The notes beneath the pieces are model-generated. The model saw nothing but the letters and a program-made list of their open reading frames with translations, ran no database searches and had not been told where the DNA came from. A DNA stretch of 22,458 bases from a virus. Both the position numbers and the translations under genes were made by a program. The DNA lies in IMG/VR virus record IMGVR_UViG_3300042691_019019, positions 1 through 22,458 of that record; one strand, given 5' to 3'. This document shows, one piece after another, positions 5,562 to 21,335 of this stretch. Within the stretch, counting starts at the first letter, position 1. Each line of letters opens with the position of its first letter.

Positions 5562-5832
5562 TGGGTAATTCGATTATTGGGGATGGGAACTCGCGTATAA
5601 CAGCGGAAAGGTCAACCCCCTGCCGTGCGCGACCGTATGCCCTGTCCAAAAGTAACTCAGCCGCCCTCAGATCGCCTTTCGCGGCTTTGGCCCGCAGCAC
5701 CTTTAATATGGTTTCAATCGCGGTTGTGCCGTCCTTTTCTTCGCCCAATACCACAGCGCATAGCTTGTCCAGTTCGGGCAGCTTTCGGGGCCGTCCGTTG
5801 GGGTTACCCGACTCGCCTTTATCATAGCGCAT
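5509..5832 (-). CDS. terS: Probable terminase small subunit
   Basis: 107 residues from ATG 5832 (MRYDKGESGNPNGRPRK). The Lys-Gly-x-Ser-Gly-Asn-Pro-x-Gly-Arg-Pro N-terminus is the hallmark of a phage/prophage DNA-binding family (DUF5681-like) often found directly before terL. The middle is helical and charged and the C-terminus acidic and Pro-rich. A GGGGG run 8 nt upstream supports this ATG; a GTG at 5871 in the same frame is an alternative. It overlaps terL by 53 bp, unusually long for this window. Assignment rests on the N-terminal motif plus the neighbour. Confidence 0.75.
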   Translation of the reverse strand: MRYDKGESGNPNGRPRKLPELDKLCAVVLGEEKDGTTAIETILKVLRAKAAKGDLRAAELLLDRAYGRARQGVDLSAVIREFPSPIIELPNEPNDSKPEAGEGVAAT

Positions 5833-8303: not shown

Positions 8304-8864
8304 TTACAGCCCCGCTATGTTCAGAGTCGGGTTGATGCCCGTGGACTTGCGATAGTTGAATGTAAAGTTGTAGTGAACATAGTCACCGTCATTGTCGGGC
8401 ACTACGTTCGTCCCGATAAATTTGATGCCATTGTCACCGAGGCACAGCACCCAATTATCAGACCCCACGAGGTTGATGAGCAGGGCACGCACAACGAGGC
8501 CACTTGTCACGTTCAGCGCGGCATAGGCCGTGTCGTTGTCGCTGTTCACGTTCGCATCGAGGTAAGTACCCGCGAAGTCATACGTGGCAACATCGGGGGT
8601 CTGCCCCGCAACGTAGGCCGATGAGGTGTTGACGGGCGACCCCTGCGGAACCCCGATTTGCAGGTTTTGAAACAGCGCGGCACGGCCAGCGGCTACATCG
8701 GTGGCGATGTCGGTCGGTATGGTGGCGGTATCATCGAACTCGGTTGTGCTGTCACAAGCGAAGATGTACGCCTTAACGCCACCACCCTGCACCTTGTCGC
8801 CACAGGTAACGAGCGTGTGCTCTGGAAGATCACCGCATGAGTAGGTATTGCATTCGCCCGCCAT
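8304..8864 (-). CDS. Putative major tail protein or other abundant virion protein
   Basis: 186 residues, Thr/Ala/Asn/Asp-rich, few Lys, mostly predicted beta strands, with a Cys-containing N-terminus (MAGECNTYSCGDLPEH). Composition, size and near-absence of charged coiled coil fit a tail-tube or decoration subunit. It is the first gene of the structural/packaging block and has its own TAnnTTTG promoter about 30 nt upstream, as expected for an abundant product. No capsid or tail gene was otherwise found for this role. Alternatives are a head decoration protein or fibre. I cannot match it to a named family by sight. Confidence 0.55.
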   Translation of the reverse strand: MAGECNTYSCGDLPEHTLVTCGDKVQGGGVKAYIFACDSTTEFDDTATIPTDIATDVAAGRAALFQNLQIGVPQGSPVNTSSAYVAGQTPDVATYDFAGTYLDANVNSDNDTAYAALNVTSGLVVRALLINLVGSDNWVLCLGDNGIKFIGTNVVPDNDGDYVHYNFTFNYRKSTGINPTLNIAGL

Positions 8865-8892: not shown

Positions 8893-8925
8893 CAAAGATA
8901 TACACTAACGAATGAATATCGCAAG
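8893..8925 (-). promoter_or_regulatory. Bacteroidota-type promoter for the structural operon
   Basis: On the minus strand TATCTTTG (8900-8893) is a perfect TAnnTTTG -7 element. A CTTG at 8925-8922, 21 nt upstream, fits the -33 TTTG element with one mismatch. The predicted start of transcription is near 8888, leaving a leader of about 24 nt before ATG 8864. It lies largely in the only gap in this stretch. Confidence 0.7.
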
Positions 8926-9316: not shown

Positions 9317-9472
9317 TCAGTCGGTTTCTTCGTTGGTTGCGTATGTGAAGTTGAATTTTCCGTTGCTCTTGTAGCCGCGCATGAGTTGTTTCGCGACACG
9401 TCTCATCGGTATTGAGTCGGCTAACATCTTAGCCCTTTCGTATGTGGCCGCTGTTCGGTATGGTCGTGTCAT
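9317..9472 (-). CDS. Hypothetical basic protein, 51 aa
   Basis: ATG at 9472 overlaps the stop of the DnaA-like gene by 4 nt and TGA is at 9317-9319, 3 nt before the next start. The protein is rich in Arg/Lys/Met (MTRPYRTAATYERAKM...; PMRRVAKQLMRGYK) and probably a short helical nucleic-acid-binding or adaptor peptide. The tight fit between two coupled genes is the strongest evidence. Its coupling to the DnaA-like protein suggests they act together, an inference only. Confidence 0.65.
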   Translation of the reverse strand: MTRPYRTAATYERAKMLADSIPMRRVAKQLMRGYKSNGKFNFTYATNEETD

Positions 9473-9843
9473 TGCTCAATGATTGAGGTGTAAATGTCGA
9501 ACATCAGATTGACGAACCCGTCCTCGGTGTCGAGGTGGTCGGTGACGGCCTTTCGCGCATAGATGACGGTTGTGTGATCGCGGTCGAATCTACGCCCAAT
9601 TTCTGTGAGGTTAAGCGGTGTCAGGCTGAACATTAGGGCCTGAGCTATCTGCCTGGCCGTTACGTCACACGACCTGCGGGACTCCGACTTCATGTCTTTC
9701 TCGGTTATCATGGTGTGATGCGACACGGCCCACAATATCCTCTCTTCCATCGTGACGGGGATCGATCCATAGACTTGTTCGGGTCGGTAAATCACTGGCC
9801 CTTCGTATCGATAGGTTCTTGCGGTGTTCGGTGTAGGTGGCAT
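9469..9843 (-). CDS. Stand-alone DnaA domain IV-like DNA-binding protein
   Basis: 124 residues. Residues about 58-102 read like the C-terminal DNA-binding domain of DnaA: CDVTARQIAQAL (basic-loop helix), LTEIGRRFDRD, then HTTVIYARKAV, a near-complete match to the DnaA signature IGxxFxxRDHTTVxxA. No AAA+ domain or Walker motifs are present. Residues 1-30 are Pro/Tyr-rich and unassigned. In DnaA this helix-turn-helix reads the 9-mer TTATCCACA. Possible roles are recognising the phage origin or competing with host DnaA. ATG 9843 is used; ATG at codon 32 would also retain the whole domain. Confidence 0.85.
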   Translation of the reverse strand: MPPTPNTARTYRYEGPVIYRPEQVYGSIPVTMEERILWAVSHHTMITEKDMKSESRRSCDVTARQIAQALMFSLTPLNLTEIGRRFDRDHTTVIYARKAVTDHLDTEDGFVNLMFDIYTSIIEQ

Positions 9844-11408: not shown

Positions 11409-11466
11409 CAAAGGTGCGGCAAGGGATTTCAGGCCACATTAAAAACGGATTAAAATGTTATTAAAG
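11409..11466 (-). promoter_or_regulatory. NTTTAAY-repeat promoter, site A
   Basis: On the minus strand three 7-mers, CTTTAAT, TTTTAAT and TTTTAAT, start at 11466, 11455 and 11444, exactly 11 bp apart. After 21 nt comes CACCTTTG (11416-11409). The same layout occurs at sites B-E. The predicted start A is near 11404, giving a 22-nt leader to ATG 11382. Confidence 0.7.
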
Positions 11467-11808
11467 TTGGCTAACGTGTTGATTGTCAGCGGTTGAATTT
11501 TCAATGACCTCACGAACGGCCTGCATAATGTCGGTGTAGCTATGGCGAACGTGGGCGAAACGCAACACCCGCCACCCTAACGCGGTCGCTGCATTATACT
11601 TTTCCATGTCATTCAAGTAGCCGACCCCGCGCGTGTGACGGCCATGTGTGAATACGGCCCCTTCTAATTCAATCGCAATCTTCTCATTCGGTATGGCAAT
11701 ATCAAACCGCCACCTGCGCGGTGGTGCGAATCGGTATTCCGTTACCGCCTGCCGTCTCAGCTCCTGTTGAATCAAGCTCACGAGTATCAATGTGCTGATA
11801 TGTTTCAT
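11461..11808 (-). CDS. PD-(D/E)XK-like endonuclease (DUF559/Vsr-like)
   Basis: 115 residues. The core RRWRFDIAIPNEKIAIELEG gives a catalytic-type Asp36 and a Glu47-x-Glu49 pair. It is followed by a His-rich loop (FTHGRHTRG), a basic helix, and GWRVLRFAHVRH, the strand order of small DUF559/very-short-patch-like nucleases. The usual final Lys of PD-ExK is Glu here. A role in Holliday-junction or branch cleavage, or DNA repair, is plausible next to replication genes. ATG 11808 overlaps the upstream stop by 4 nt. Confidence 0.75.
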   Translation of the reverse strand: MKHISTLILVSLIQQELRRQAVTEYRFAPPRRWRFDIAIPNEKIAIELEGAVFTHGRHTRGVGYLNDMEKYNAATALGWRVLRFAHVRHSYTDIMQAVREVIENSTADNQHVSQL

Positions 11809-12101
11809 CGTGTCACGTATAATGTGCCATGCCGCGCCTGATTCATTCTTAGCGCGTCTGCCATCGATTTAGGTCGGTTGGTAACGTATGCCTCGATCGC
11901 GGAAACATCGCGGCCCGACACGAGCTTTTCAATGTCCTTGTGCGGCACAAGTTCGGGTCCACCACATAGACCCGTGACTCGTTCGCCATTAACGCGAAGG
12001 TGATAGTGGTATCCGCCAATTATGAGGTAGGCCGCTGTGATCTCGTACCTGTTGCGGAGCGAGTCTGTCCACTTGTGGCCGATGGGGTAGTGCTTACTCA
12101 T
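11805..12101 (-). CDS. Hypothetical protein, 98 aa
   Basis: ATG at 12101 (MSKHYPIGHKWTDSLRNRY) overlaps the upstream stop by 4 nt; an in-frame ATG further up lies inside the previous gene and is rejected. The first half is beta-rich with YLIIGGYHYHLRVNGERV, possibly a small barrel; the second half has a helix with the pattern IEAYVTNRPKSMADALRMN. No known family recognised. Coupled by 4-nt overlaps to both neighbours, so likely co-translated with the nuclease. Confidence 0.75.
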   Translation of the reverse strand: MSKHYPIGHKWTDSLRNRYEITAAYLIIGGYHYHLRVNGERVTGLCGGPELVPHKDIEKLVSGRDVSAIEAYVTNRPKSMADALRMNQARHGTLYVTR

Positions 12102-12358
12102 GGCATCTGATCTATCAATCGTTGTAGCTTGCGTTCGGCCACGACCGCGCGGCCCTGTTGTGTGCTGGCCTCCAGTTCGGCTTTCGCCCACTTTCTGCGA
12201 AGGTCTGCCGTCTGGTGTCTCAGTTGCTCTATTCGCAGCGCGGCAGTTAGCATGACGTAGGCCATGTCATGCGCCCGCTCATCCTTGCCCGACTCACTCA
12301 GGAATCGGCTGAATTGCCTCAACAGGCTCAACGTCTCAAAGTCTTGGATTTCGTCCAT
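12098..12358 (-). CDS. Helical coiled-coil protein, 86 aa
   Basis: Almost entirely helical: MDEIQDFETLSLLRQFSRF, then a long Arg/Glu/Ala/Gln-rich helix from about residue 35 (RIEQLRHQTADLRRKWAKAE) to the end. ATG shares one nucleotide with the helicase stop (TGATG), so the two are tightly coupled. A helicase accessory or replisome-bridging role is possible but only inferred from this coupling. Confidence 0.75.
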   Translation of the reverse strand: MDEIQDFETLSLLRQFSRFLSESGKDERAHDMAYVMLTAALRIEQLRHQTADLRRKWAKAELEASTQQGRAVVAERKLQRLIDQMP

Positions 12359-13434
12359 CAGAAAGGCGGATTATCGTTTTGTTCCTGTGAGTGCGGCAAA
12401 TTCCGACCGCTTGCATAGCCGTACATCTCGCGGGCCTGATCGGTCACAACCTCTTTAAGTGCCGCTAAGTGCGCCCGTCCTTCGCCCGCAAAGAACAGCT
12501 TACCATCGAGGTTTTCGTAATACCTGAATCGCGACCATTCCCAAAACATTGACTTCTTGCCGAGACACGCAACGCCTTTTGGCTTGGCCTTATGCACGGC
12601 AATAATAACCTCGTTGTTCGCGTATGGTATGCCAGTATCGGGGTTGAGCATGTCAGCGGGCGGCCTCCAAAGTGTGAGCATCAGAAACCCCCTGCGGTAC
12701 CAGTTCTGACCCATTGCCCATTCCGTAGGCTCAGGCATCGGAATGAACCGCCTGCCGCTTTCTTTGTCCTTTTCGGCAGGTATCTGCGCAATGTGATTCA
12801 CAAGGAACCCCGCGCGATTATGCGACTTGCACTCCCTTCGCCAATTCTTAAGCTCATCTTCAAGCCATAGCTCTACCCTGTTCCCGTACGGCTTTAGGTC
12901 TTTCACGAAGTCATTGAACGGGTCGAAGGCCATCGTGTCAAACGAAAAGCCAAGCTCTTTTTCCCACGCTGTCACCTCCTTGCAGAATTGCGCGGGCGTG
13001 TAGTCTGTTTCGTCCGATAGCACGTAAAAATGTTGACTGACCCAATACCTACCCTGTTCGGCCTCTGATTCGCTCATCGCGTAGCCGTTCAACACGCCTC
13101 GTTGCTTATACCTTCGATAGGGCTTGCCGATGTACTTTTCTACCAGTTGAATGTAGATTTCTGCTGCATTGCCCTCTTCGCCTGAATAGATACAATGCCG
13201 CCACTTGCTGAACGTGGACAGGTTGATGAGCATCTCGAACAACCATTCCGATTTGCCCGCGTGAGGCATGGCCGCGATGTACACGGGAAACCCCTTGCGG
13301 ATTGATATGAACGGCTTACCCAATGTGCCGCCATGTTCGTCCAAACTCTCAAACCCGATGTACTCACCGCGCTGAACGTCCGAGTCGCGAATCTGCTGTA
13401 ATTCGCTCACGCATTGGTCAAGTGTGCGCCTCAT
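12358..13434 (-). CDS. DnaB-like replicative helicase (RecA-fold C-terminal domain)
   Basis: 358 residues. Walker A is AMPHAGKS at 55-62, followed by SGEE near 84-87 (motif H1a-like), MAFDPFNDF (Walker B region) near 168, VNHIAQIP near 213 and a later basic segment around WYRRGFLMLTLWRP. This is the RecA-like motor of DnaB/Twinkle-family helicases without the usual N-terminal primase-binding domain. It unwinds DNA at the phage fork. Its ATG overlaps the stop of the putative initiator by 4 nt, the order seen for initiator-helicase pairs in phages such as P22. RepA-type RecA-fold ATPases are the alternative. Confidence 0.85.
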   Translation of the reverse strand: MRRTLDQCVSELQQIRDSDVQRGEYIGFESLDEHGGTLGKPFISIRKGFPVYIAAMPHAGKSEWLFEMLINLSTFSKWRHCIYSGEEGNAAEIYIQLVEKYIGKPYRRYKQRGVLNGYAMSESEAEQGRYWVSQHFYVLSDETDYTPAQFCKEVTAWEKELGFSFDTMAFDPFNDFVKDLKPYGNRVELWLEDELKNWRRECKSHNRAGFLVNHIAQIPAEKDKESGRRFIPMPEPTEWAMGQNWYRRGFLMLTLWRPPADMLNPDTGIPYANNEVIIAVHKAKPKGVACLGKKSMFWEWSRFRYYENLDGKLFFAGEGRAHLAALKEVVTDQAREMYGYASGRNLPHSQEQNDNPPF

Positions 13435-14153
13435 GCTGTCGGGTTGTTAGGCTCATCAGTCGGTGCGCCTGGCAGGTGCATGAACTGAGGCATGTTCTTA
13501 GGCGTGACCTCTGCGAACCGTTCGGGTGTAAGCCATTCAAGTCTGCCCGATACCATCCAATTTTTGAACACCTCTTTGATGTGCGGCACAAGGTATTTGC
13601 GGGTGCGGAATTTGATTCCAAGCTCCTTTGCCTGTTCCTCGCATAGTTTCGATGTGGGCGTGTTCTCAGATAGCGACTCAAAGAACTGATCGGCTGTGAC
13701 GCTTGAGAATGAGTAATAGAGGATGTTCTTTCTGCGAGGTGTGCCCGTGTTAGGTTCGAGGTTGATGGTAAGGGGTCGGGGTTCTTGATAATGTGAATGT
13801 TCATTTACATTACCATTCACATTATCATTTACATTAGGGGTTTTGATGGGGTTTTGATGGGGTTTGCTTGGGGTTACGGTGGGGTTTTCTTGGGGTTTTC
13901 TTGGGGTTTTGGGTCGGCCTCCAAGATGGCCGAAACTACCACCCTTCGCGCCTTGTGCCCGTTTCTTTTTGTTCGCATCGAACTGAGGCCGCATGAACTG
14001 CCACAGGGTAGAATGTATGCCCGTCAATTCAGGCTCCTTGTCGTCAAGGCAGTAGTCGGCTATCGCGTCAATGAGCTTAAGCCGATCCGCGTCTGGTAGG
14101 TCTTTGAGTCCGCTCAAAAAAGAGCGGTACATCACAAAGCTATCTTGTGCCAT
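13431..14153 (-). CDS. Putative replication initiator/helicase loader (DUF6291-like)
   Basis: 240 residues. The N-terminal domain (about 1-75: SFVMYRSFLSGLKDLPDADR..., WQFMRPQFDANKKK, GGRPK) matches the N-terminal pattern common to phage replication proteins next to DnaB-like helicases. Residues about 80-125 are a low-complexity linker of Pro/Lys/Asn/Thr (KTPRKPQENPTVTPSKP) that then becomes Asn/Val-rich. The C-terminal part (about 145-220) is a separate helical domain with Trp residues. The linker is encoded by the candidate origin repeats, as in lambda gene O. Function is inferred from operon position and this layout. Confidence 0.7.
   Translation of the reverse strand: MAQDSFVMYRSFLSGLKDLPDADRLKLIDAIADYCLDDKEPELTGIHSTLWQFMRPQFDANKKKRAQGAKGGSFGHLGGRPKTPRKPQENPTVTPSKPHQNPIKTPNVNDNVNGNVNEHSHYQEPRPLTINLEPNTGTPRRKNILYYSFSSVTADQFFESLSENTPTSKLCEEQAKELGIKFRTRKYLVPHIKEVFKNWMVSGRLEWLTPERFAEVTPKNMPQFMHLPGAPTDEPNNPTA
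13790..13914. other. Candidate phage replication origin inside the initiator gene
   Basis: Three blocks abut. A perfect 10-bp inverted repeat, AATGTGAATG (13790-13799) and CATTCACATT (13814-13823). Three AT-rich 12-mers of type CATTTACATTAC at 13802, 13814 and 13826. Seven 11-mers beginning GGGG at 13837, 13848, 13859, 13870, 13881, 13892 and 13903, all exactly 11 bp apart (types GGGGTTTTGAT, GGGGTTTTCTT). Iterons beside an AT-rich repeat block in a putative initiator gene resemble lambda ori, and three AT-rich 12-mers resemble the oriC unwinding element. The G-runs could also form G-quadruplexes on the plus strand. Confidence 0.6.
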
Positions 14154-14164
14154 GTGAAAAAATG

Positions 14165-14234
14165 CAGGGGCGCGGTGACGAGTCGCGTAAGCGGTGGTCT
14201 GCTCAATGACCGACCTCCGCTGTTTTTACCCCTG
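14165..14234 (-). promoter_or_regulatory. Structured leader: three-way junction followed by a U-run
   Basis: On the transcript (minus strand) P1 pairs CAGGGG (14234-14229) with CCCCTG (14170-14165). Inside it, P2 pairs AGCGGAGGTC (14221-14212) with GACCACCGCT (14199-14190) with one mismatch and a 12-nt loop. P3 pairs CGCG with CGCG (14187-14184/14174-14171). After P1, ATTTTTT follows within two nucleotides, then the initiator ATG at 14153. The arrangement resembles an attenuator or folded cis-regulatory RNA. No known riboswitch class recognised. Confidence 0.5.
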
Positions 14235-14258
14235 TAAGTTGTTGCTGTTGTTGTTCAT
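14226..14258 (-). CDS. Candidate leader peptide, 10 aa, Asn-rich
   Basis: ATG at 14258 opens a 10-codon frame, MNNNSNNLQG, ending in TAA. Five of ten codons are Asn (AAC). Its last codons form the 5' strand of P1 in the downstream structure, so a ribosome translating it would prevent P1 from forming. It lies between the TATATTTG promoter and the initiator gene. Low complexity means chance is possible. Confidence 0.35.
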   Translation of the reverse strand: MNNNSNNLQG

Positions 14259-14295
14259 TGAGTCTTAGGATGGTCAGATCGTCACTCCGACCTTG

Positions 14296-14303
14296 CAAAT
14301 ATA
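14296..14303 (-). promoter_or_regulatory. Bacteroidota-type -7 promoter element for the replication operon
   Basis: TATATTTG is a perfect TAnnTTTG -7 box just downstream of the stop of the 92-aa gene and inside the 158-bp gap. No good -33 TTTG is visible. Transcription would start near 14290, giving a leader of about 135 nt that contains the candidate leader peptide and the three-way junction before ATG 14153. Confidence 0.6.
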
Positions 14304-14311
14304 CTACATTC

Positions 14312-14590
14312 TCAGTTGCCGCGCATCGTCCTCATCCTGAAATGACACGTCTCACCGTGCAGGGTCGCGTAGTATCCACGCGGTTTGGTGTCAATAGGTT
14401 TGATGGTGCGCTTTCCCTTGTGCTGCCCACGGTACGCGCGGATCAGTTCCCTTGTCGCGCGTTCGCTTGTGAACGTCTCAGGATGTTCATTGAACAGGTG
14501 CCGCGCGAGGGTGCATGTCGGCCATGTGTTGAAGTCGGGGTCTGCAAGGTAGCGGCAGACGGTGTGGCCTTTGGGGGTGCGGTGTGCCAT
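14312..14590 (-). CDS. Small DNA-binding-like protein (free-standing N-terminal domain)
   Basis: 92 residues. The stretch TWPTCTLARHLFNEHPETF, continuing to REL and IRAYRGQHKGKR, resembles the helical domain found at the N-terminus of larger Bacteroidota phage proteins (before phosphoesterase or nuclease domains), where a Leu-Ala-Arg helix and an Ile-Arg-x-Tyr-Arg-Gly motif recur. Here it stands alone. A C-terminal basic segment ends with MRTMRGN. Likely nucleic-acid binding, by composition. Its start shares one base with the stop of the methyltransferase upstream. Confidence 0.65.
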   Translation of the reverse strand: MAHRTPKGHTVCRYLADPDFNTWPTCTLARHLFNEHPETFTSERATRELIRAYRGQHKGKRTIKPIDTKPRGYYATLHGETCHFRMRTMRGN

Positions 14591-15387
14591 TAGAATAACG
14601 TTGGGTGTATTTTCTCAATCTTCGACTTCGCATACCCAAGTTCAGATAGTTCCTTAATCATTCGGGCATTATCCTCGATCCACTTTGAAGCAGCAGCATG
14701 AAAGTCCTTTTTGATTTCAAACCCATAAGCCTTTCTCTTTAGGTTCTGCGCGGCTATTAGTGTTGACCCGCTGCCAGCGCATGGATCAATCACAACGTCA
14801 CCCTCGTCTGTAAATATGCGGATCAGATTCTCAAGCAGTTCAACTGGTTTTTGTGTCGGGTGCAATTTCTCGTTTACGGTGTCGCGCGGCCAGTCCATGC
14901 AGTTGAATATCATTTTGCCGTTATTATTGAATTTCGGGAGTTTGTCGCGATAAAAAAGCACGGCATATTCGCAGTTGCCTACCACTTTCATATTTGCCTT
15001 AAGCACCTGTGCGCTGAAATTCTTTCTAAAAACGAGGTTGATATATCCAGTCAGGCCGTATTTTTTCGCAAGCTCTATCAAATAAAACTGCTGCTCAAAT
15101 TCACAGAATACAATCATGCACGGGGACTGACCTTTTTCCTTCGGTTCCTTTTTAAGCATTGTTGAGCAAAAGTGCATGAACTCTGCTGGTCGAAAGTCCT
15201 TGTCGGTGTCGAAAAACTCCTTGCCAGCAAGTTCGCTTTCACCATTCTTATTGTCGCCATCTTTATACCATGATGGGTTCGATGCGTATGCGTTGTTGCC
15301 TAAATTATATGGTATGTCTGCAATGATGAGTTGCGCCTTTGGTATCTGATACCCTTTGAAGTTTTGGAAGTGATCTCTGTATAGCAT
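14590..15387 (-). CDS. DNA amino-methyltransferase with DIPY motif
   Basis: 265 residues. The catalytic motif IIADIPYNLG (Asp24-Tyr27) is a DIPY variant of DPPY, and the SAM-binding region VVIDPCAGSGSTLIAA is at the C-terminal side, so this is a beta-class N6-adenine/N4-cytosine methyltransferase (HPTQKPVELLENLI between them is typical). The methyl acceptor sequence cannot be read. ATG overlaps the previous stop by one base (TAATG), so it is translated with the other methyltransferase. No restriction endonuclease is nearby; an anti-restriction role is likely. Confidence 0.88.
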   Translation of the reverse strand: MLYRDHFQNFKGYQIPKAQLIIADIPYNLGNNAYASNPSWYKDGDNKNGESELAGKEFFDTDKDFRPAEFMHFCSTMLKKEPKEKGQSPCMIVFCEFEQQFYLIELAKKYGLTGYINLVFRKNFSAQVLKANMKVVGNCEYAVLFYRDKLPKFNNNGKMIFNCMDWPRDTVNEKLHPTQKPVELLENLIRIFTDEGDVVIDPCAGSGSTLIAAQNLKRKAYGFEIKKDFHAAASKWIEDNARMIKELSELGYAKSKIEKIHPTLF

Positions 15388-16040
15388 TAGAACAGCTTGA
15401 GTTGTGATTTGTATTCTGCGTACCGTTTCTCCTGTGCCGCGTAGTAGTCGGGGTCGAGTTCGTATCCGTAGAAGTCAATGTTACCCGCCCTGTCTGCTGC
15501 TATCCGATTTGACCCGCTACCAAGATGCGAGTCGATGACCCTTCCGCCATCTGGCAGGTAGTTCTTGTATATCCAGTCGTACAAAGCAATTGGTTTTTGC
15601 GTTGGATGAATATTGATTCCAGACCGTTCAGCGCCTTTAAGTTTCGGAGCAAACCCGCTTTCGTTACCTCTAGCATAACGAAAAACTCTAGCACTTGAAC
15701 TAAAAGAACACCAAGCCAATTCACAATCCGCTTGGTCAATTCTTTGAACTTTATCCCATATCAAAAAACAACGGCTTGGAGGAAGTTCAAAATAATTTCC
15801 ACCCCAAATGATTTGATTTTTTGATACTCTGAATAGTTCAATAAAGTATTCAATATTTGGAATTGCATTATCCCATTGGCTTGCGTTTCTTTCTTTCCAT
15901 CCATCAGATTTCTTCTTTTTACCTACAAGTTCTGAATATCCAATCCCATAAGGCGGATCGACAACGGCCAAATCAAAGTACTTATCGGGAAATTCCCGCA
16001 TCGCAGCCATGCAGTCACGGTTGTAAACAATCGATGTCAT
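15387..16040 (-). CDS. DNA amino-methyltransferase with DPPY motif
   Basis: 217 residues. The catalytic motif AVVDPPYGIGY has Asp28-Pro-Pro-Tyr31; HPTQKPIALYDWI near 145 precedes the SAM-binding motif VIDSHLGSGSNRIAA (Asp-Ser-His where most have Asp-Pro-Phe). Beta-class N6A/N4C methyltransferase, compact but complete. It sits between a 54-aa coupled gene and the second methyltransferase. The two share order and motifs but little sequence, so they probably have different target sites rather than being a recent duplication. Confidence 0.9.
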   Translation of the reverse strand: MTSIVYNRDCMAAMREFPDKYFDLAVVDPPYGIGYSELVGKKKKSDGWKERNASQWDNAIPNIEYFIELFRVSKNQIIWGGNYFELPPSRCFLIWDKVQRIDQADCELAWCSFSSSARVFRYARGNESGFAPKLKGAERSGINIHPTQKPIALYDWIYKNYLPDGGRVIDSHLGSGSNRIAADRAGNIDFYGYELDPDYYAAQEKRYAEYKSQLKLF

Positions 16041-16201
16041 TTCACCCTCAGTTCCTTGTGATCTCCCTCGACCTTATCCTCATCGATGAGCGCAAGTATT
16101 GACTTCCATTGCAGCCGTGGTACATGGCGTTTCAATTTCAGGTAAGGCATCGGGCCTAACCTTTGCAGCGTTTCGAGGGCCTTTTTCTGTAGCGGGGTCA
16201 T
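16037..16201 (-). CDS. Small winged-helix-like protein, 54 aa
   Basis: ATG at 16201 overlaps the upstream stop by 4 nt and TGA overlaps the DPPY methyltransferase ATG by 4 nt. The protein (MTPLQKKALETLQRLGPMPY...) reads like three short helices and a strand, with LQKKALETLQRLG as helix 1, a central basic segment LKLKRHVPRLQW and a final ILALIDEDKVEG, the pattern of a compact winged helix. It may bind DNA or regulate the adjacent methyltransferase. Too short for most gene callers. Confidence 0.65.
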   Translation of the reverse strand: MTPLQKKALETLQRLGPMPYLKLKRHVPRLQWKSILALIDEDKVEGDHKELRVK

Positions 16202-16416
16202 TGTATCTCCAGTTCGCTTGTGATGTTGTCAAGCCCGAACAGCACATCAAACTCGCGTGTAACGTCTCTGTTGCCTATCTTGACGGTTGTAATTGATGCT
16301 GTTGAAGGATCATCGCCACCCGCGTCAGTTGTGCCACGGTAGCGACTGATTACAGCGTGAACCTCTTTAGTGGTAGTCAGGCCGTCAGGTGATGCGATTT
16401 CGATTGTTAGTGTCAT
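16198..16416 (-). CDS. Hypothetical protein, 72 aa, with probable leaderless start
   Basis: Thr/Ile/Asp-rich, mostly beta (MTLTIEIASPDGLTTTKEV..., IGNRDVTREFDVLFGLDN). It begins at ATG 16416, only 4 nt after the -7 box of promoter site D, so the message would have little or no 5' leader. It heads an operon of the 54-aa protein, the two methyltransferases and the 92-aa protein. No family recognised. Confidence 0.75.
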   Translation of the reverse strand: MTLTIEIASPDGLTTTKEVHAVISRYRGTTDAGGDDPSTASITTVKIGNRDVTREFDVLFGLDNITSELEIQ

Positions 16417-16420
16417 GCTG

Positions 16421-16467
16421 CAAGTTTCGGGTGTTTCTTGTTGGTCGAAATGAAAATGGGGTTAAAT
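16421..16467 (-). promoter_or_regulatory. NTTTAAY-repeat promoter, site D
   Basis: On the minus strand ATTTAAC starts at 16467, TTTTCAT 11 bp later at 16456, and after 21 nt comes GAAACTTG (16428-16421). ATG follows after exactly 4 nt. A 27-bp block here (16447-16473) matches site E (17991-18017) at 24 of 27 positions. Confidence 0.65.
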
Positions 16468-16474
16468 GTTTGAA

Positions 16475-16807
16475 TCACCAAACGTCTTCACTATAAAGGA
16501 ATCCCTTATCCTCTGTGGTCTGCCCTGCTGAAAAAGCTATTTTGGCGGCCTCAGTCCTGCCGACAAATCTGTTGTGGCTTGTGAGAAACCCCTGCTCAAT
16601 CTCTCCAAGTTCGTCCGATGGCTTATTGAACATTGCGACAGCTTGATATATGCAGTTTGCGTGCCTCCATCCGCATAGGACTATTCCCCTATCAATGTTA
16701 TATGGGCTGAATCCTCTTATTCTTATCACCTCTTCTCGTGGCAACGGTATGCCGTCATACCACACGGCACTACAAAGTATGTATTCTTGTTTTTCCATCT
16801 CACCCAT
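16475..16807 (-). CDS. Conserved phage hypothetical protein, 110 aa
   Basis: The sequence has patterns that recur in phages of Gram-negative bacteria: EKQEYILCSAVWYDG, then RGIVLCGWRHANCIYQ, then EQGFLTSHNRFVGRTEAAKIAF and FLYSEDVW at the end. The family is known to me only as a phage protein of unknown function, probably a small alpha/beta cytoplasmic protein. Start may be ATG 16807 or ATG 16798, which is 1 nt after the stop of the 27-aa gene. It is the last gene before promoter D. Confidence 0.75.
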   Translation of the reverse strand: MGEMEKQEYILCSAVWYDGIPLPREEVIRIRGFSPYNIDRGIVLCGWRHANCIYQAVAMFNKPSDELGEIEQGFLTSHNRFVGRTEAAKIAFSAGQTTEDKGFLYSEDVW

Positions 16808-16883
16808 TGCTCAACATCATTGCGTGTTCGTTGCTCACATTGTAATGCTTGCGGATAGTCTCCATTGACGTGCCCGCTTTCAC
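16800..16883 (-). CDS. Micro-protein with helix-turn-helix-like sequence, 27 aa
   Basis: GTG at 16883 overlaps the stop of the 135-aa gene (GTGA). The peptide VKAGTSMETIRKHYNVSNEH looks like a helix-turn-helix of a small regulator, or the C-terminal piece of a tyrosine recombinase (GTSxExIxKHY). The same frame is closed by TAA two codons upstream, so if it is a recombinase remnant almost all has been lost. The stop falls within the start of the next gene. It bridges two coupled genes; confidence is moderate because of size. Confidence 0.45.
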   Translation of the reverse strand: MKAGTSMETIRKHYNVSNEHAMMLSNG

Positions 16884-17287
16884 CTTTTAGAAATTACAAC
16901 CAGCGTTGGGTCTGTGTACTTGACCGATGCCGCCTCAATTACCTCTCCATTTTCATCAACCATATCGGTTTTGAACTTAGCCCAATTGTCAGCAGCCACC
17001 TTTGCCTTCTCCTCTATCGCCTTGACTGATGCTGTTGCGTCAGCCCACGATTGTAGGTGTTTGAAGTCATAGATACGCCTACCCTGCCTAAGTTCAAATT
17101 TGATACCATGAAGCTCAAAGCTCTTTCCATATTTCTCCGCCTCTGATACTGCCGCTGGCTTAACTTGTGATGCCGCATCAGCAAACCAATCAGCAATTTG
17201 CTTCAATTCAGCATACGCCATTATCGGGTTCTCTTCGCCATTTAGAACGGCCTCAACTAATGCTGAGTAGTCTCTGTTTGATTGCAT
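16880..17287 (-). CDS. Hypothetical protein next to the annealing recombinase, 135 aa
   Basis: A soluble helical protein. The middle KYGKSFELHGIKFELRQGRRIYDFKHL followed by a helix with KAIEEKAK resembles a family of Bacteroidota phage proteins encoded beside single-strand annealing proteins. The C-terminus is KYTDPTLVVISKR. It could be an accessory factor (host-nuclease inhibitor or recombination mediator), suggested by position 11 nt downstream of the ERF gene. No catalytic residues stand out. Confidence 0.75.
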   Translation of the reverse strand: MQSNRDYSALVEAVLNGEENPIMAYAELKQIADWFADAASQVKPAAVSEAEKYGKSFELHGIKFELRQGRRIYDFKHLQSWADATASVKAIEEKAKVAADNWAKFKTDMVDENGEVIEAASVKYTDPTLVVISKR

Positions 17288-17298
17288 GGTTATTGGTA

Positions 17299-17919
17299 TT
17301 AGGAAAGTAGTTGGTTTACGAAGTCTTCAAGTTGCGCCAGGGTGTCCTTGTTGATTTTGTAGGCCACCTTTAGCTTTTCGATGGTCGTTTTGCCTGTGCG
17401 GATGTACTCAAGGGTTTTTTCCCACTCAGGCGTTGGGTTTCCGTTTTTGTCCGTCATGTTCAGCCATTTCCTATCATCGGCCTGTTGTGGCTGTTGTTGC
17501 TGCTGCCTCGTGGCTTGCTTATTGGACTGTCCAGACGCTGAGTTTGCATCATCGTCCTCATCGATATTGAGAGACAGAAAAGCACCGATGGCATACCTCC
17601 TCGCATACGTTATAGCAGACCCGAGCGCTTGCGGGTCGTTTTGCTTTTGGACGGGCATCTGATACGTGCTACTGATATACTCCCCGCTTACGTGGAGTAA
17701 TATGGTCGTTATTTCATTTGAGCCGCACGGCATTTGAATAATTGAAAGACCGCACCCGTGAAGTATGGGCGTGACGGCTTCAATTATTGTTGACAGCGAT
17801 GCGTATTTGTTCCTGAAATGCGGGTTAACGCTGTCTTTCGCTACCTTGCCCATCTGTCCGTGAAAGTCAACAAGTGACTTTGATAGGCTTGTGATTGATT
17901 CTGATTTCGTGTAGTTCAT
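17299..17919 (-). CDS. erf: ERF-family single-strand annealing protein
   Basis: 206 residues. The ERF core is clear: VNPHFRNKYASLSTI at 32-46, then DPQALGSAITYARRYAIGAF at about 95-114, followed by DEDDDAN. A Gln-rich linker at about 138-150 leads to a helical C-terminal domain (WEKTLEYIRTGKTTIEKLK) likely involved in partner binding. ERF proteins anneal complementary strands in phage recombination, genome circularisation and repair. ATG 17919 overlaps the end of a 14-codon leader frame by 4 nt. No exonuclease partner was seen in the window. Confidence 0.9.
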   Translation of the reverse strand: MNYTKSESITSLSKSLVDFHGQMGKVAKDSVNPHFRNKYASLSTIIEAVTPILHGCGLSIIQMPCGSNEITTILLHVSGEYISSTYQMPVQKQNDPQALGSAITYARRYAIGAFLSLNIDEDDDANSASGQSNKQATRQQQQQPQQADDRKWLNMTDKNGNPTPEWEKTLEYIRTGKTTIEKLKVAYKINKDTLAQLEDFVNQLLS

Positions 17920-17960
17920 TTGTCGAACGTCTTAGGTGTGATTGCTACTGATGTGGTCAT
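17916..17960 (-). CDS. Candidate leader peptide before erf, 14 aa
   Basis: ATG at 17960 lies 4 nt after the -7 box of promoter site E and opens MTTSVAITPKTFDK. Its TGA overlaps the ATG of erf (ATGA). Thus the first translatable codon on the predicted leaderless message belongs to this mini-frame, which would feed ribosomes into erf by re-initiation. Its first bases are part of a 15-bp direct repeat. Confidence 0.45.
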   Translation of the reverse strand: MTTSVAITPKTFDK

Positions 17961-18064
17961 TGTGTAAAGGTCTTGCCTGTGGCGTGTTGAGAAATGAAAT
18001 TGGGGTTAAACCTTTGAGGTAAGTATATCTTTTTTAGTGCCGTCCAAGAACTGATGTGGTCATT
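17947..18064. repeat. 15-bp direct repeat flanking the site E promoter block
   Basis: ACTGATGTGGTCATT occurs at 17947-17961 and again at 18050-18064, 103 bp apart. The outer copy carries the stop of the DGQHR gene (and an ATGA-coupled 9-codon frame, 18034-18063); the inner copy carries the ATG of the leader peptide. The 88 bp between them contain the whole promoter. This could be a duplication scar. Confidence 0.6.
17965..18011 (-). promoter_or_regulatory. NTTTAAY-repeat promoter, site E
   Basis: On the minus strand GTTTAAC starts at 18011, ATTTCAT 11 bp later at 18000, and after 21 nt comes GACCTTTA (17972-17965), then CACA and ATG. The weakest -7 match (A instead of final G) but the strongest block similarity to site D. 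Drives erf and downstream genes. Confidence 0.65.
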
Positions 18065-18857
18065 TGGCGATTGCTCTTATGAAAAGCTGTTTCACATCTT
18101 GATCGGACTTTAGTACGGACACATCGCGCCCCTCCTTGAAGTACACGTAAGCCTTCAATATCAACTCCTCAACGCTTGATTTTGGAAGTGGCGCAACTGC
18201 GCTCAAATTGCGTATCAGCCGATCGCGCAACAGGTGTATCACATTCATTTCAATGTTCCTTCCAGTACATACCTGATTAAAAAACTCTTCTATTGAACTT
18301 TGGTCAAACATTGCAAGAAAGCTACCGATGATGCTGGCCTGTATTTTGACCTGTGACTTGCGGGCCAAGTGGTCAGCAATTTTGTAGCATCTATCAATCA
18401 GATCTCGGTTAGCCTCGTAAAATTCAATCTGTTCTGAGGCGGTCGGTCGTGCCAAAGGGAATTTGCATGAGTGCGTTTTAAGCTTCAACAGATTCCGTAC
18501 AAGGGCCGCTTTTTTATTCGCGTCAATCTCCCCATCCATGTGCATGATGTTGCCGACAGTCCTTGCCGCTCCTGTATCTATTGTCTTAATAGAAATGTGG
18601 TCAATGTCGGTCACGACCCACATCGCAATCGATACTCCCGACCTCAAAACGGCTGACAATCGATGTTGCCCGTCAATCAGGAAGCCGTTAGTGTCAAACT
18701 TTATGGTTTCCCCGTTGTCGCTTTGCCACCTTCCGCCACTCATGTCGTTGGCGTACATCATTACTATGTCCTTTTTGATGGGGCGGTTTCTTTCTACGTT
18801 CTTACTCAAGAACTCAGCGGCCAATGTTGGCGTTACGGTTACTCTGCAAATGTTCAT
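18060..18857 (-). CDS. ParB-like DGQHR-domain protein
   Basis: 265 residues. Residues about 30-75 hold the signature MSGGRWQSDNGETIKFDT then LIDGQHRLSAV (Asp62-Gly-Gln-His-Arg66), typical of phage ParB/sulfiredoxin-fold proteins. The rest is a helical domain with several basic stretches and no helix-turn-helix I can assign. Such proteins are widespread in phages and probably bind or modify nucleic acid or its nucleotides, but precise activity is unknown. The gene starts at ATG 18857 with an A/C-rich, SD-less leader, 22 nt after the upstream stop. Second ParB-fold protein in the window. Confidence 0.8.
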   Translation of the reverse strand: MNICRVTVTPTLAAEFLSKNVERNRPIKKDIVMMYANDMSGGRWQSDNGETIKFDTNGFLIDGQHRLSAVLRSGVSIAMWVVTDIDHISIKTIDTGAARTVGNIMHMDGEIDANKKAALVRNLLKLKTHSCKFPLARPTASEQIEFYEANRDLIDRCYKIADHLARKSQVKIQASIIGSFLAMFDQSSIEEFFNQVCTGRNIEMNVIHLLRDRLIRNLSAVAPLPKSSVEELILKAYVYFKEGRDVSVLKSDQDVKQLFIRAIAK

Positions 18858-18879
18858 GGCTTTGGTTGATGTTTGATTG

Positions 18880-19179
18880 TTACGCCTTCGATTCTGACCA
18901 CCTTACCTCCATCGCCCGTGTCGGCCCTTCGATGGTGACGAGATGGTTATCCGCTATGCGAACGGTCAGGCGATAAGCGGGTGTAATCTCATCAGGTCCG
19001 AACGCGGTCATATTCAACGCTCGGCAGATTTCGCCAAGTGCGGTGTCGGTCGTTGTTATGGTTCGCAGGCACCTTTCGCCATTCGGCACTTTGTATCCAG
19101 CGTAATGAATGATGCGCTCGGCAACGTCACGCCCTTCGGCTGTGGCGTAAATGCCTGATCTGAGTTTGTCGGTGGTCAT
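18880..19179 (-). CDS. Hypothetical protein, 99 aa
   Basis: Begins MTTDKLRSGIYATAEGRD, with a helical first half (VAERIIHYAGYKVPNGE) and a beta-rich second half (YRLTVRIADNHLVTIEGPTR). Arg/Thr-rich, mildly acidic. No family recognised. Separated by 3 nt from the upstream gene; belongs to the unit driven by site B. Confidence 0.7.
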   Translation of the reverse strand: MTTDKLRSGIYATAEGRDVAERIIHYAGYKVPNGERCLRTITTTDTALGEICRALNMTAFGPDEITPAYRLTVRIADNHLVTIEGPTRAMEVRWSESKA

Positions 19180-19182
19180 GGG

Positions 19183-19542
19183 TTAGAAATTAATAGTGTA
19201 GATCAAATGAGGATCGCAAGCGAAGTCAACGCATCCATCTGATGTCATTGCTCCAGCAGGGTGTCGGTGTGATGAAAAGCGATACTTTATACCGTTATAA
19301 TAGTAGTACCTGCTCTCGCTAACATTGCTCTGAATGCGCTGAGTGCCTATGTTTTGCAGGTGCTTTTCAAATAATGAGATTCTTTCCCACATGCCGAACA
19401 TTTCCATTATTTTGGAAACATATACGGGGTAAGCTGCCTCAAAAGAAACATCACCATACTGAGCGATAAAACGCGCGTCTCTGTCACCTGCCCCATTGGT
19501 GAAGGTCTTTTTGAACTGATCGAATGTTGGAGGCGTTTTCAT
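19183..19542 (-). CDS. Hypothetical protein, 119 aa
   Basis: Start taken at ATG 19542 (MKTPPTFDQFKKTFTNG) because the -7 box of promoter site B (19570-19563) lies upstream of it and after an in-frame ATG at 19593; the leader is then about 16 nt. Aromatic-rich: FIAQYGDVSFEAAYPVYV, then ESRYYYYNGIKYRFSSHRHPAG with four Tyr in a row. The Cys pair near the C-terminus (DGCVDFACDPH) might bind metal. No family recognised. Confidence 0.75.
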   Translation of the reverse strand: MKTPPTFDQFKKTFTNGAGDRDARFIAQYGDVSFEAAYPVYVSKIMEMFGMWERISLFEKHLQNIGTQRIQSNVSESRYYYYNGIKYRFSSHRHPAGAMTSDGCVDFACDPHLIYTINF

Positions 19543-19562
19543 GTCGCTGTTGTTTGATGGGT

Positions 19563-19620
19563 CAAATATCCCCCGCCAAACATTGGGCGACATTAAAACG
19601 GAATTAAAAAGCGATTAAAA
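19563..19620 (-). promoter_or_regulatory. NTTTAAY-repeat promoter, site B
   Basis: The cleanest copy: three identical TTTTAAT 7-mers start at 19620, 19609 and 19598 on the minus strand, exactly 11 bp apart, then 21 nt, then GATATTTG (19570-19563). The bases after both A and B boxes are ACCCA. Predicted transcription start near 19558. Confidence 0.72.
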
Positions 19621-19628
19621 TGCAGCGG

Positions 19629-19862
19629 CTACTTGCCCTCTAATATGGTCAGGCGGCTCTCCAATACCTCAATCTGTTTCGCCTGGGTGAGGCACACGCC
19701 CTCCAATACTTTCACCCGTGCGCGAAGTGTTGACCTGTTCTGAATGGCCTCAGTAATCAATCGCAGCACCAATTCGGCACCGTTGAATATCAGTTGAAAC
19801 GGTATCGGGTTACCGCTCGATAGGTTTTCAGCGGCCTGCTTCTGAAGCGCGGTGTTGCTCAT
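19629..19862 (-). CDS. Coiled-coil protein, 77 aa
   Basis: MSNTALQKQAAENLSSG followed by an amphipathic segment (LIFNGAELVLRLITEAIQN) and a clear C-terminal leucine-heptad coiled coil (LRARVKVLEGVCLTQAKQIE to the end). Probably oligomeric. ATG overlaps the upstream stop by 4 nt. Function unknown; last gene of the unit that begins with the M15 peptidase. Confidence 0.7.
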   Translation of the reverse strand: MSNTALQKQAAENLSSGNPIPFQLIFNGAELVLRLITEAIQNRSTLRARVKVLEGVCLTQAKQIEVLESRLTILEGK

Positions 19863-20152
19863 TTCTTCATCTTGTATTCGCGAACCTCTCCAGTATTCGG
19901 GTCGGACACAATCGTGGCAAGGTGGTCGTGTTTCCCATCGTCAACCCAGATCATGTGGCCAGGGGCAACATGATAGTTGGGCAGATTTTTCAATTCAGGG
20001 GTCATTTCCTTGAGCTTTTCAACTACGGCAATGTGGTACTTCAGCCAAATGCACAGATCAACAGCAAGCCGATCGACATTCTCAGGTGTTGCGACATTGA
20101 TTAGCCGCTCAAACGAATCGATGCGGTATTCTTTTGGTTTCTTTTTGCTCAT
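19859..20152 (-). CDS. Hypothetical protein, 97 aa
   Basis: Lys-rich ends (MSKKKPKEYRIDSF; EVREYKMKK) enclose a helical core RLAVDLCIWLKYHIAVVEKL and a beta-rich half HMIWVDDGKHDHLATIV. A soluble adaptor is likely; no family recognised. Linked to both neighbours by 4-nt overlaps. Confidence 0.7.
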   Translation of the reverse strand: MSKKKPKEYRIDSFERLINVATPENVDRLAVDLCIWLKYHIAVVEKLKEMTPELKNLPNYHVAPGHMIWVDDGKHDHLATIVSDPNTGEVREYKMKK

Positions 20153-20598
20153 GGCTTAACGATCACAATCTTGTTTACGTTGTTCGGGCCTGTGTCCTTT
20201 GAGTCGATATGGCACCATCCAAAGTAGGGGCCTGTGCTGCGCGATGTGTAGGCAATATCCTCAACCCTTCGGATACCCATTGCGTATGCCTCAACGGGGT
20301 GCGATATAATCCACTCAAACACCTTGCGAGGCGTTACCCCATCGGTCAGGAATTTAAGATCAAATGCGGCCCCCGTTTTATGCTGCGAGTACTTCGCGCC
20401 CGTTGCCGTGTCAGACCGCCTCAACCCGCTCTCGGTATATCCCCGCCCGTTGATCAGTATCGGGCCGAACCGTTCGCGCAGGGCATCGATGGCACGTAGC
20501 GCGTTCGGGTCGAGCATGGCCCATATTTCGGCCTCGGTGTGATTTGCGAGAAACCACGGGTCAACGAGTTCGGGAAGGGTGAAGTGTTTTGGTTTCAT
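20149..20598 (-). CDS. M15-family peptidase, probable endolysin
   Basis: 149 residues, no signal peptide. Zinc ligands are visible: SQHKTGAAFDL gives His73 and Asp80, and WCHID gives His130, the H-x6-D...H pattern of M15 (D-Ala-D-Ala carboxypeptidase/L-Ala-D-Glu endopeptidase type) enzymes. It begins MKPKHFTLPELV, a usual opening for phage M15_3 proteins, so ATG 20598 is secure. It would cut peptidoglycan peptides at lysis and needs a holin for export. ATG lies only 4 nt after the -7 box of promoter site C, separating it transcriptionally from the holin upstream. Confidence 0.9.
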   Translation of the reverse strand: MKPKHFTLPELVDPWFLANHTEAEIWAMLDPNALRAIDALRERFGPILINGRGYTESGLRRSDTATGAKYSQHKTGAAFDLKFLTDGVTPRKVFEWIISHPVEAYAMGIRRVEDIAYTSRSTGPYFGWCHIDSKDTGPNNVNKIVIVKP

Positions 20599-20602
20599 GC
20601 CC

Positions 20603-20649
20603 CAAATTTCACCCCTAAAACGGCACGAACAATTAACACGAGATTAAAC
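20603..20649 (-). promoter_or_regulatory. NTTTAAY-repeat promoter, site C
   Basis: On the minus strand GTTTAAT starts at 20649, TGTTAAT 11 bp later at 20638, and after 21 nt comes GAAATTTG (20610-20603), then GGGC and ATG. The same stretch can be read as an 18-codon frame ending ATGA at the peptidase start; the match to four other sites favours a promoter, though both could be true. Confidence 0.6.
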
Positions 20650-20710: not shown

Positions 20711-20950
20711 TTACGCTTCGGGCGCGGCTTGTGCTGTGTTGCGTTGGTCTTTGTCACGGCTTGATTTCGATGAGCCAAAGTAGTAATTAAGGACGGTGCC
20801 GAAAGCGGTCAGCAATGCGCCTAATGCGATGTTCACAAGGTCGTGCGAGCTTTCTGGTATGGGCGTGTAGAACAACAGGAACACGAGCGCAAACGTGCCT
20901 GAAAGCACCACCATCGCTAACACCCCCATGAACACGTTGCGGCCCTGCAT
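20711..20950 (-). CDS. Holin-like membrane protein
   Basis: 79 residues from ATG 20950, 1 nt after the upstream stop. Two membrane helices are evident: VFMGVLAMVVLSGTFALVFL (about 6-27) and VNIALGALLTAFGTVLNYYF (about 38-58), separated by a short loop, and the C-terminus is charged (SSKSSRDKDQRN). The Gly-Ala-Leu-Leu-x-Ala-Phe...Asn-Tyr-Tyr-Phe-Gly-Ser pattern is common in class-II-like holins of Bacteroidota and related phages. It would form pores that release the M15 endolysin. Two starts further upstream lie in the preceding gene and are rejected. Confidence 0.8.
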   Translation of the reverse strand: MQGRNVFMGVLAMVVLSGTFALVFLLFYTPIPESSHDLVNIALGALLTAFGTVLNYYFGSSKSSRDKDQRNTAQAAPEA

Positions 20951-20951
20951 A

Positions 20952-21335
20952 TTACAACAGATCGAGATTAATCTTCGCGTCAACCCCCTGCTGCTTGAAC
21001 ATCTGCTGCATAGCCTCGGCCATTCTCAGTTGACGATCGGTCAGCTTTTTCATTTCGGCCTCGTTATGTTTTTTATGGGTAGTAAACTCGTCCAATAGCT
21101 GTTGCCGTGCTTTTTCGCACTCATCGCCCTGTTTTGTTATGACAACGAGTCTATCCTCCAGCCCTTCGGCAAGTTCGCGCCATACCTTGATGGCCTTGTC
21201 CACATTATCCAATTCCGACCCCTTAGCCTGTGACTGCCCCTTGCGCCATGCCATGATTGTAGTTGCCACACCTGCTGCTGCGGTAGCAATGGTCGGGGCA
21301 TAGGTGGTCAGGTCGATTTCCATTGGCCTATTCAT
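20952..21335 (-). CDS. Membrane-anchored coiled coil, spanin-like
   Basis: 127 residues. Residues about 12-31 form a hydrophobic anchor (APTIATAAAGVATTIMAW), followed by SELDNVDKAIKVWRELAEGL, a segment typical of Bacteroidota phage lysis-region proteins, and a long coiled coil to the end with an internal Cys. Anchor plus periplasmic coiled coil is the architecture of an inner-membrane spanin (Rz). No separate Rz1 lipoprotein was found in other frames. ATG 21335 overlaps the upstream stop by 4 nt. Spanin role inferred from topology and position before the holin. Confidence 0.65.
   Translation of the reverse strand: MNRPMEIDLTTYAPTIATAAAGVATTIMAWRKGQSQAKGSELDNVDKAIKVWRELAEGLEDRLVVITKQGDECEKARQQLLDEFTTHKKHNEAEMKKLTDRQLRMAEAMQQMFKQQGVDAKINLDLL

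Follow-up and report, generated by a model that had tools for sequence, protein, structure and literature searches.

Repeat-bearing promoters of a virus contig resemble candidate operators for OmpR/PhoB-family response regulators of Bacteroidota

This work concerns five promoter-like sites, A to E, in the IMG/VR virus record IMGVR_UViG_3300042691_019019, a stretch of 22,458 bases (the window) whose chosen genes lie on the minus strand. Each site carries two or three 7-mers in direct repeat (half-sites in what follows), followed at a fixed distance by a box of the TTTG type. This anatomy recurs in related phages and, most clearly in A, B and C, it matches candidate bacterial operators that adjoin regulator genes. 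Judging from these likenesses in sequence, we lean towards the view that A to E are phage promoters whose operator serves an OmpR/PhoB-family response regulator of the host, a member of the Bacteroidota. We infer from the same likenesses that such a protein may bind the sites and activate transcription, which protein it would be, and what kind of signal it might relay.

Results

Anatomy of sites A to E

A first, sequence-only reading of the window had placed five sites on the minus strand, with 7-mers 11 bp apart and a 21-nt gap before the box. All five were found where it had put them, on the strand that codes for the genes behind them. There are three 7-mers in A and B and two in C, D and E. 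The spacing is exactly 11 bp in 5/5 sites, and the distance from the last 7-mer to the box is exactly 21 nt in 5/5. Coordinates, and the open reading frames (ORFs) behind the sites, are as follows.

Site A, 11409..11466, minus strand: 7-mers CTTTAAT (11466-11460), TTTTAAT (11455-11449) and TTTTAAT (11444-11438); box CACCTTTG (11416-11409); 26 nt downstream, the ATG of a 70-amino-acid (aa) ORF.
Site B, 19563..19620, minus strand: TTTTAAT at 19620-19614, 19609-19603 and 19598-19592; box GATATTTG (19570-19563); 20 nt downstream, the ATG of a 119-aa ORF.
Site C, 20603..20649, minus strand: GTTTAAT (20649-20643) and TGTTAAT (20638-20632); box GAAATTTG (20610-20603); 4 nt downstream, the ATG of an endolysin-like gene (20149-20598).
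Site D, 16421..16467, minus strand: ATTTAAC (16467-16461) and TTTTCAT (16456-16450); box GAAACTTG (16428-16421); 4 nt downstream, the ATG of a 72-aa gene, followed by a 54-aa gene and then two methyltransferases.
Site E, 17965..18011, minus strand: GTTTAAC (18011-18005) and ATTTCAT (18000-17994); box GACCTTTA (17972-17965); 4 nt downstream, the ATG of a 14-codon ORF, followed by Erf (17299-17919).

Sites B to E lie entirely inside gaps between the chosen ORFs, in line with the earlier description of the sites as occupants of the main gaps, but the uppermost 7-mer of A overlaps the end of an ORF (11461-11808). The genes they lead had been described as replication or recombination, methylation and endolysin genes. 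This holds for recombination (E), the endolysin-like gene (C) and the methyltransferases (D, behind the two small genes), whereas A and B lead small ORFs and no replication genes.

The -7 element of Bacteroidota promoters has the consensus TAnnTTTG. In the phage boxes an A stands at position 2 in 5/5 sites, TTTG is exact in 3/5, and the first base is T in 0/5. The form nAnnTTTG, a relaxed version of that element, describes the box best; a TTTG-type box at a fixed distance stands, but GAnnTTTG, as first proposed, is too strict. With only 4 nt between box and ATG in C, D and E, transcription from about 5 nt past the box would give leaderless messages. Plain TAnnTTTG boxes without repeats were also found, much as the sequence-only reading had reported.

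Plain box TATATTTG, 14296..14303, minus strand, without repeats: precedes a replication-type operon.
Plain box TATCTTTG, 8893..8900, minus strand, without repeats: precedes the gene at 8304-8864.

Rarity of the layout

A gapped motif search was run over the phage, its relatives and shuffled sequence, using the pattern TTTAAY-N5-TTTHAY-N21-GANNTTTG on both strands. The window matched once without mismatch (B) and four times with one mismatch (A, C, D and E); no place had two mismatches, two places had three, and one had four. Twenty dinucleotide shuffles held no match at two mismatches or fewer, and on average 0.4 at three and 1.55 at four. Across 54 other phage loci (669,371 bases; L006-L065 with six relatives left out) the pattern occurred 0 times at one mismatch or fewer and once at two or fewer. 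All five window sites found at one mismatch or fewer precede gene starts on the coding strand.

Candidate bacterial operators of the same build adjoin regulator genes

A pattern derived from the phage sites was also run over one genome per species in 84,980 species, where it matched 42 stretches. By tblastn, ten of the 42 had a match to an OmpR-type regulator or kinase. Nine of these matches adjoin the site (four in Pontibacter, three in Pedobacter and two in Bacteroidetes contigs from metagenome-assembled genomes); the tenth, in Neobacillus, is weak and was not counted. Many of the stretches other than the regulator-linked ones cross long ORFs. Five of six regions of about 20 kb have the order regulator gene, kinase gene, repeats at the 3' end of the kinase gene, operon; L166 differs. 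The operon genes tested behind the repeats encode a CusA/CzcA-type transporter or a SulP-type transporter, the latter accompanied by a carbonic-anhydrase-like gene. For five of the bacterial regulators the best model was the heavy-metal model TIGR01387, with scores below its cut-off, and the PhoB, OmpR, RprY and CtrA models match them too. The phage layout gave five matches in 61 Bacteroidota genomes and none for a reversed control. One of the five is the regulator-linked site of G009 (a Pontibacter). Of the others, L240 is in a gap, roughly 4 kb from a weak regulator/kinase match, and three overlap genes.

In the order of G011, a Pedobacter, 44 of 201 genomes have three exact TTTAAT at 11-bp spacing (reversed control, 4/201); in that of G009 they are present in 27 of 194. 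When genomes were drawn from the whole phylum and TTTG was required in register, 2/395 matched. We analysed 73 short bacterial loci, among the matches listed, and found a regulator or kinase match in 48. By source, such a link was seen in 15/16 loci from the earlier searches (places partly overlapping) and in 25/28 from the order of G011, one of which, L181, has only a partial match away from the site. Removal of overlapping duplicates left 41 kinase-linked loci. In 41/41 a TAnnTTTG-like box begins exactly 10 nt past the last in-register repeat; the test tolerates inexact boxes and allows four registers. At any other offset between 4 and 17 a box was found in 0-5 of the 41, and 5/23 unlinked loci have such a box. 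The phage gap of 21 nt is 10 + 11, hence the phage sites share the register of the bacterial operators. Linkers such as TTCG are also common to both. The ATG of an ORF of at least 100 aa sits 4 nt past the box in 14/41 bacterial loci (e.g. L153, L178, L183, L191 and L196), as in C, D and E, which suggests leaderless messages there.

A matrix was then made from 38 distinct bacterial sites only and covered the two registers shared with the phage plus the box. The top of the window consisted of B (31.1), A (25.2), C (19.0), E (8.4) and D (7.0); further hits were out of register inside A (7.0) and inside B (2.8), and the next place scored -0.3. Over 100 shuffles the best scores averaged 0.1 and peaked at 12.9, a value surpassed by A, B and C. 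When only the repeats were scored, two sites, B (28.8) and A (20.3), lay above the shuffle maximum of 18.7.

Related phages keep the promoters and exchange the genes

Eight relatives, G001-G008, were gathered by protein searches; they are close to the window and mosaic in gene content. Sites of the same layout are present in G001, G002, G003, G007 and G008, some homologous in place to A to E and some new, while the short fragments G004, G005 and G006 hold no site at four mismatches or fewer. In six sets of orthologous sites, each with few sequences to compare, the variable columns amount to 3/72 in the half-sites, 1/30 in the linkers, 1/24 in TTTG, 0/24 in the first four box bases, 12/126 in the spacer and 13/66 in the 11 nt upstream.

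The first ORF behind site A differs among the window, G003, G007 and G008; that behind site B differs among the window, G001, G002 and G007; and that behind a sixth type of site differs among G002, G003 and G007. Within each of these sets no pair matches (blastp, E 1e-3). The sixth type is followed in G007 by a YqaJ-family exonuclease. Behind site E, G001 has recT, and the window has the 14-codon ORF and then Erf. Three further loci (L096, L099 and L104) hold a stretch of about 475 bp (L099:4868-5341) that includes its own site of this promoter family and an 81-aa ORF; at the corresponding place G007 has about 22 bp. Wider viral scans were also run. Of 21 loci from one of them, L005 and these three were accepted as true relatives, and most of the others cross long ORFs. 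L227-L230, L231-L233 and L235-L237, from further scans, gave no accepted member of the promoter family.

The idea that the promoters are special recombination joints was considered, since 10/79 homology edges lie near sites (2.5% expected by length). It was rejected because nine other gaps carry 16/79 edges over 4.9% of the length.

Several side observations concern these sequences. The 14-codon ORF (17916-17960, MTTSVAITPKTFDK) resembles the start of the G001 RecT (MTTSVAITPKTFEAL), as if erf took the place of recT behind a retained promoter. The segment of about 475 bp, situated in the structural region, looks like a moron. An inverted TCGC...GCG stretch lies between repeats and box in the spacer of site B (19571-19591) and in several sites of G001, G002 and G007; it is absent in D and E, and it may be a second operator. 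Another phage contig (L232:4528-4548) has three in-register half-sites (TTTAAT, TTTAAT and TTTAAA) and no TTTG box. On the plus strand of the window, at 13837-13911 within an ORF (13431-14153), direct repeats of the GGGGTTTT type also have an 11-bp period, in a sequence that differs from the A to E repeats.

Protein matches that bear on the host of the window phage are all distant. Its helicase matches 95 records (79 from Flavobacterium and 14 from Riemerella phages). TerL matches a Bacteroides phage best (29.8%), yet 31/56 records are Arthrobacter phages, and Erf and a 265-aa protein match phages from many phyla.

Candidate binding proteins

The frames of the window and G001-G008 were searched for the DNA-binding domain of the five bacterial regulators, and no match was obtained (best E 6.7). 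Pfam reported no OmpR-type domain and no sigma factor on 52 ORFs (of 103 listed) from the motif-bearing parts of G001 and G007. The scans of the window, an incomplete contig, covered 30 ORFs with PHROGs and 10 with Pfam; neither these nor the scan of the 52 ORFs of the relatives named a MotA family. Since neither an OmpR-type DNA-binding domain nor a sigma factor appeared in the scanned phage sequences, a host factor is likelier than a phage MotA-like factor or sigma. Two phage proteins are nevertheless candidates.

54-aa protein, predicted winged helix, 16037..16201, minus strand: the chief rival as a phage-encoded regulator.
Bac_DnaA_C protein (DnaA domain IV helix-turn-helix), 9469..9843, minus strand: the second candidate phage regulator.

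The 54-aa protein is present also in G001, G002, G003 and G007. Fold prediction from four sequences gave a winged helix with a pLDDT of 92.3. A search with this fold returned only generic winged-helix matches, none at E <= 0.001, among them the MotA activation domain (1bja) at E 0.09. Bac_DnaA_C proteins occur in the window, G001 (26764-27123) and G007 (20785-21159), one each among the Pfam-scanned ORFs of G001 and G007, and relatives are found in G003, G006 and G008. In these short proteins of the window, G001 and G007, Pfam reports no DnaA ATPase domain.

Discussion

According to two papers, operators of the OmpR/PhoB family are head-to-tail direct repeats of about 7 conserved nt with 11-bp spacing (PMC4415409, PMC3798270), and the sites of one member, ArcA, have two to five direct repeats mostly 11 bp apart (PMC3798270). 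In A to E the 11-bp spacing of the direct repeats is exact at 5/5 sites. As the phage sites agree with bacterial operators in half-site, linkers, period and register relative to the box, a host OmpR/PhoB-family regulator is the simplest account of them.

Based on these results, we propose a model in which each 11-bp unit, a 7-mer and its 4-nt linker, would be the half-site bound by a single winged-helix monomer. Two or three such monomers would line up head to tail along the same face of the helix, and once bound they may help the host RNA polymerase to start at the weak nAnnTTTG box. Recombination genes, small genes with methylases, endolysin and accessory genes would then be expressed according to a host two-component signal. 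Because the box-nearest half-site of the bacterial operators is absent, the protein would sit one turn further upstream in the phage, at about -34 to -51 if the start is 5 nt past the box.

Several observations weigh against this model. The half-site nearest the box stands at 10 nt in the bacterial operators but at 21 nt in 5/5 phage sites, one turn further upstream. The operators compared come from Sphingobacteriales- and Cytophagales-type genomes and stand in for those of the presumed host. In the order of G009 the reversed control is also frequent (12/194 genomes), and only 8/29 loci are kinase-linked. D and E score below the shuffle maximum of the matrix with box. With the repeats alone, C (13.9), D (6.6) and E (5.4) all fall below the shuffle maximum, and an unrelated plus-strand place at 5701 scores higher than these three (14.2). 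Finally, the bacterial search used exact TTTAAT, so the operator has been drawn sharper than it really is; the TTTAAC and TTTCAT half-sites of D and E could not enter that search.

The sequence-only reading had proposed an activator or sigma-like factor acting as a MotA-like switch of the phage. What survives of this proposal is an operator of activator type, helically phased with a -7 box of Bacteroidota type, but no sigma factor was seen in the phage sequences scanned and the closest match is the bacterial operator. A phage-encoded factor could still be the 54-aa protein or the DnaA domain IV protein, acting as activator or repressor, with the likeness to host operators convergent or borrowed. 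The distribution of both proteins among the relatives, the predicted winged helix of the first and the missing box-nearest half-site are in its favour. We regard it as unlikely, because half-site, linkers, period and register all fit a bacterial operator adjoining its regulator genes, the fold matches of the 54-aa protein are generic, and a tie of either protein to the repeats is conjecture.

The repeats could instead be an intrinsic element, read by host or phage-modified RNA polymerase without a separate activator. Bacteroidota promoters have a -33 element, and curved upstream DNA typically has AT tracts one helical turn apart. With a start 5 nt past the box, the proximal 7-mer lies at about -34 to -40, near that element, so that the repeats might be a variant -33 with AT-rich, helically phased, UP-like sequence. 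This seems improbable to us, since bacterial operators adjoining regulator genes have the same defined half-site with fixed linkers, the half-site columns hardly vary across related phages, and plain TAnnTTTG promoters of the same phage lack half-sites. Least probable of all is that a bound host or phage protein silences the promoters, or that the sites are decoys that titrate a host regulator: the inverted TCGC...GCG stretch of several spacers would fit a second operator, but the spacing to the -7 box is exact at gene starts on the coding strand in 5/5 sites, and the bacterial counterparts directly precede efflux or transport operons adjoining their regulator pair.

Three narrower readings were set aside. 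The PhoB PHO box as the specific identity of the sites was rejected because the bacterial sites adjoin no phosphate genes but heavy-metal-type regulators, followed either by an efflux operon of the CusA/CzcA kind or by a SulP-type transporter accompanied by a carbonic-anhydrase-like gene. A possible third half-site, the degenerate CCnAAT of the phage spacer, falls at 10 bp, not 11, and is not conserved. Replication iterons are not favoured, as the sites occur at five separate gene starts, each at a fixed distance from the -7 box.

More tentatively, and with less than even confidence, we suggest that a clade of Bacteroidota phages has placed its promoters for recombination, methylation, lysis and accessory genes under a two-component stress system of the host, of the OmpR/PhoB family. 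Such promoters would be portable and stay in place as the genes downstream of them are swapped; in three relatives a promoter and its gene lie together on a segment missing from another relative. The progress of infection would then depend on a host signal (metal, envelope or redox), a counterpart of the lytic deferment by CtrA. If this is true, phage gene expression is open to test by altering one host two-component system. The results also offer a candidate operator (three or four TTTAAT at 11 bp, then 10 nt, then TAnnTTTG) for CusR/CopR-like response regulators of two Bacteroidota orders, which is useful for regulon mapping. Bacteroidota phages would then join those of other phyla in which control by CtrA or PhoB is already known. 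A search of open-licence papers gave no case of a host-signal-controlled promoter for Bacteroidota phages.

How do these promoters compare with known systems? MotA of phage T4 is a phage-encoded activator of middle promoters that acts near the upstream promoter element. A to E are similar in being a subset of phage promoters that would depend on an activator near the upstream element, but MotA is phage-encoded, and no MotA family was named in our phage scans. The CusR/CopR-like operators of Sphingobacteriales- and Cytophagales-type genomes share with the phage the TTTAAT half-site at 11 bp, similar linkers and the same register to a TAnnTTTG-type box. They differ in the distance of the half-site from the box (10 nt vs 21 nt) and in the first position of the box, which is T in 35/38 bacterial boxes and mostly G or C in the phage.

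Within the Bacteroidota, the DAP-seq motif reported for PhoP of Riemerella anatipestifer, an OmpR-family regulator, is ArcA-like, with TTTAACA most conserved (PMC9603813). Compared by core only, TTTAACA resembles the TTTAAC half-sites of D and E. A Pho box is named in Bacteroides fragilis, in the excerpt of its source without a sequence (PMC3547664).

The nearest known kind is phage promoters controlled by CtrA or PhoB. PhoB controls cyanophage genes, where, as proposed here, OmpR/PhoB-family direct repeats, the host PhoB boxes, stand before phage genes (PMC10976474). The cyanophages differ in their phosphate signal and cyanobacterial hosts, whereas here the bacterial look-alike sites adjoin heavy-metal-type regulators. 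In phages of Alphaproteobacteria, CtrA controls phage promoters and lytic deferment (PMC9437464). These phages belong with another phylum and have another half-site sequence, and binding and regulation were shown there by experiment, where our case is one of likeness. They have in common with the window phage that sites for a host response regulator, putative ones in the window phage, lie in phage promoter regions, and the CtrA models also match the bacterial regulators found here.

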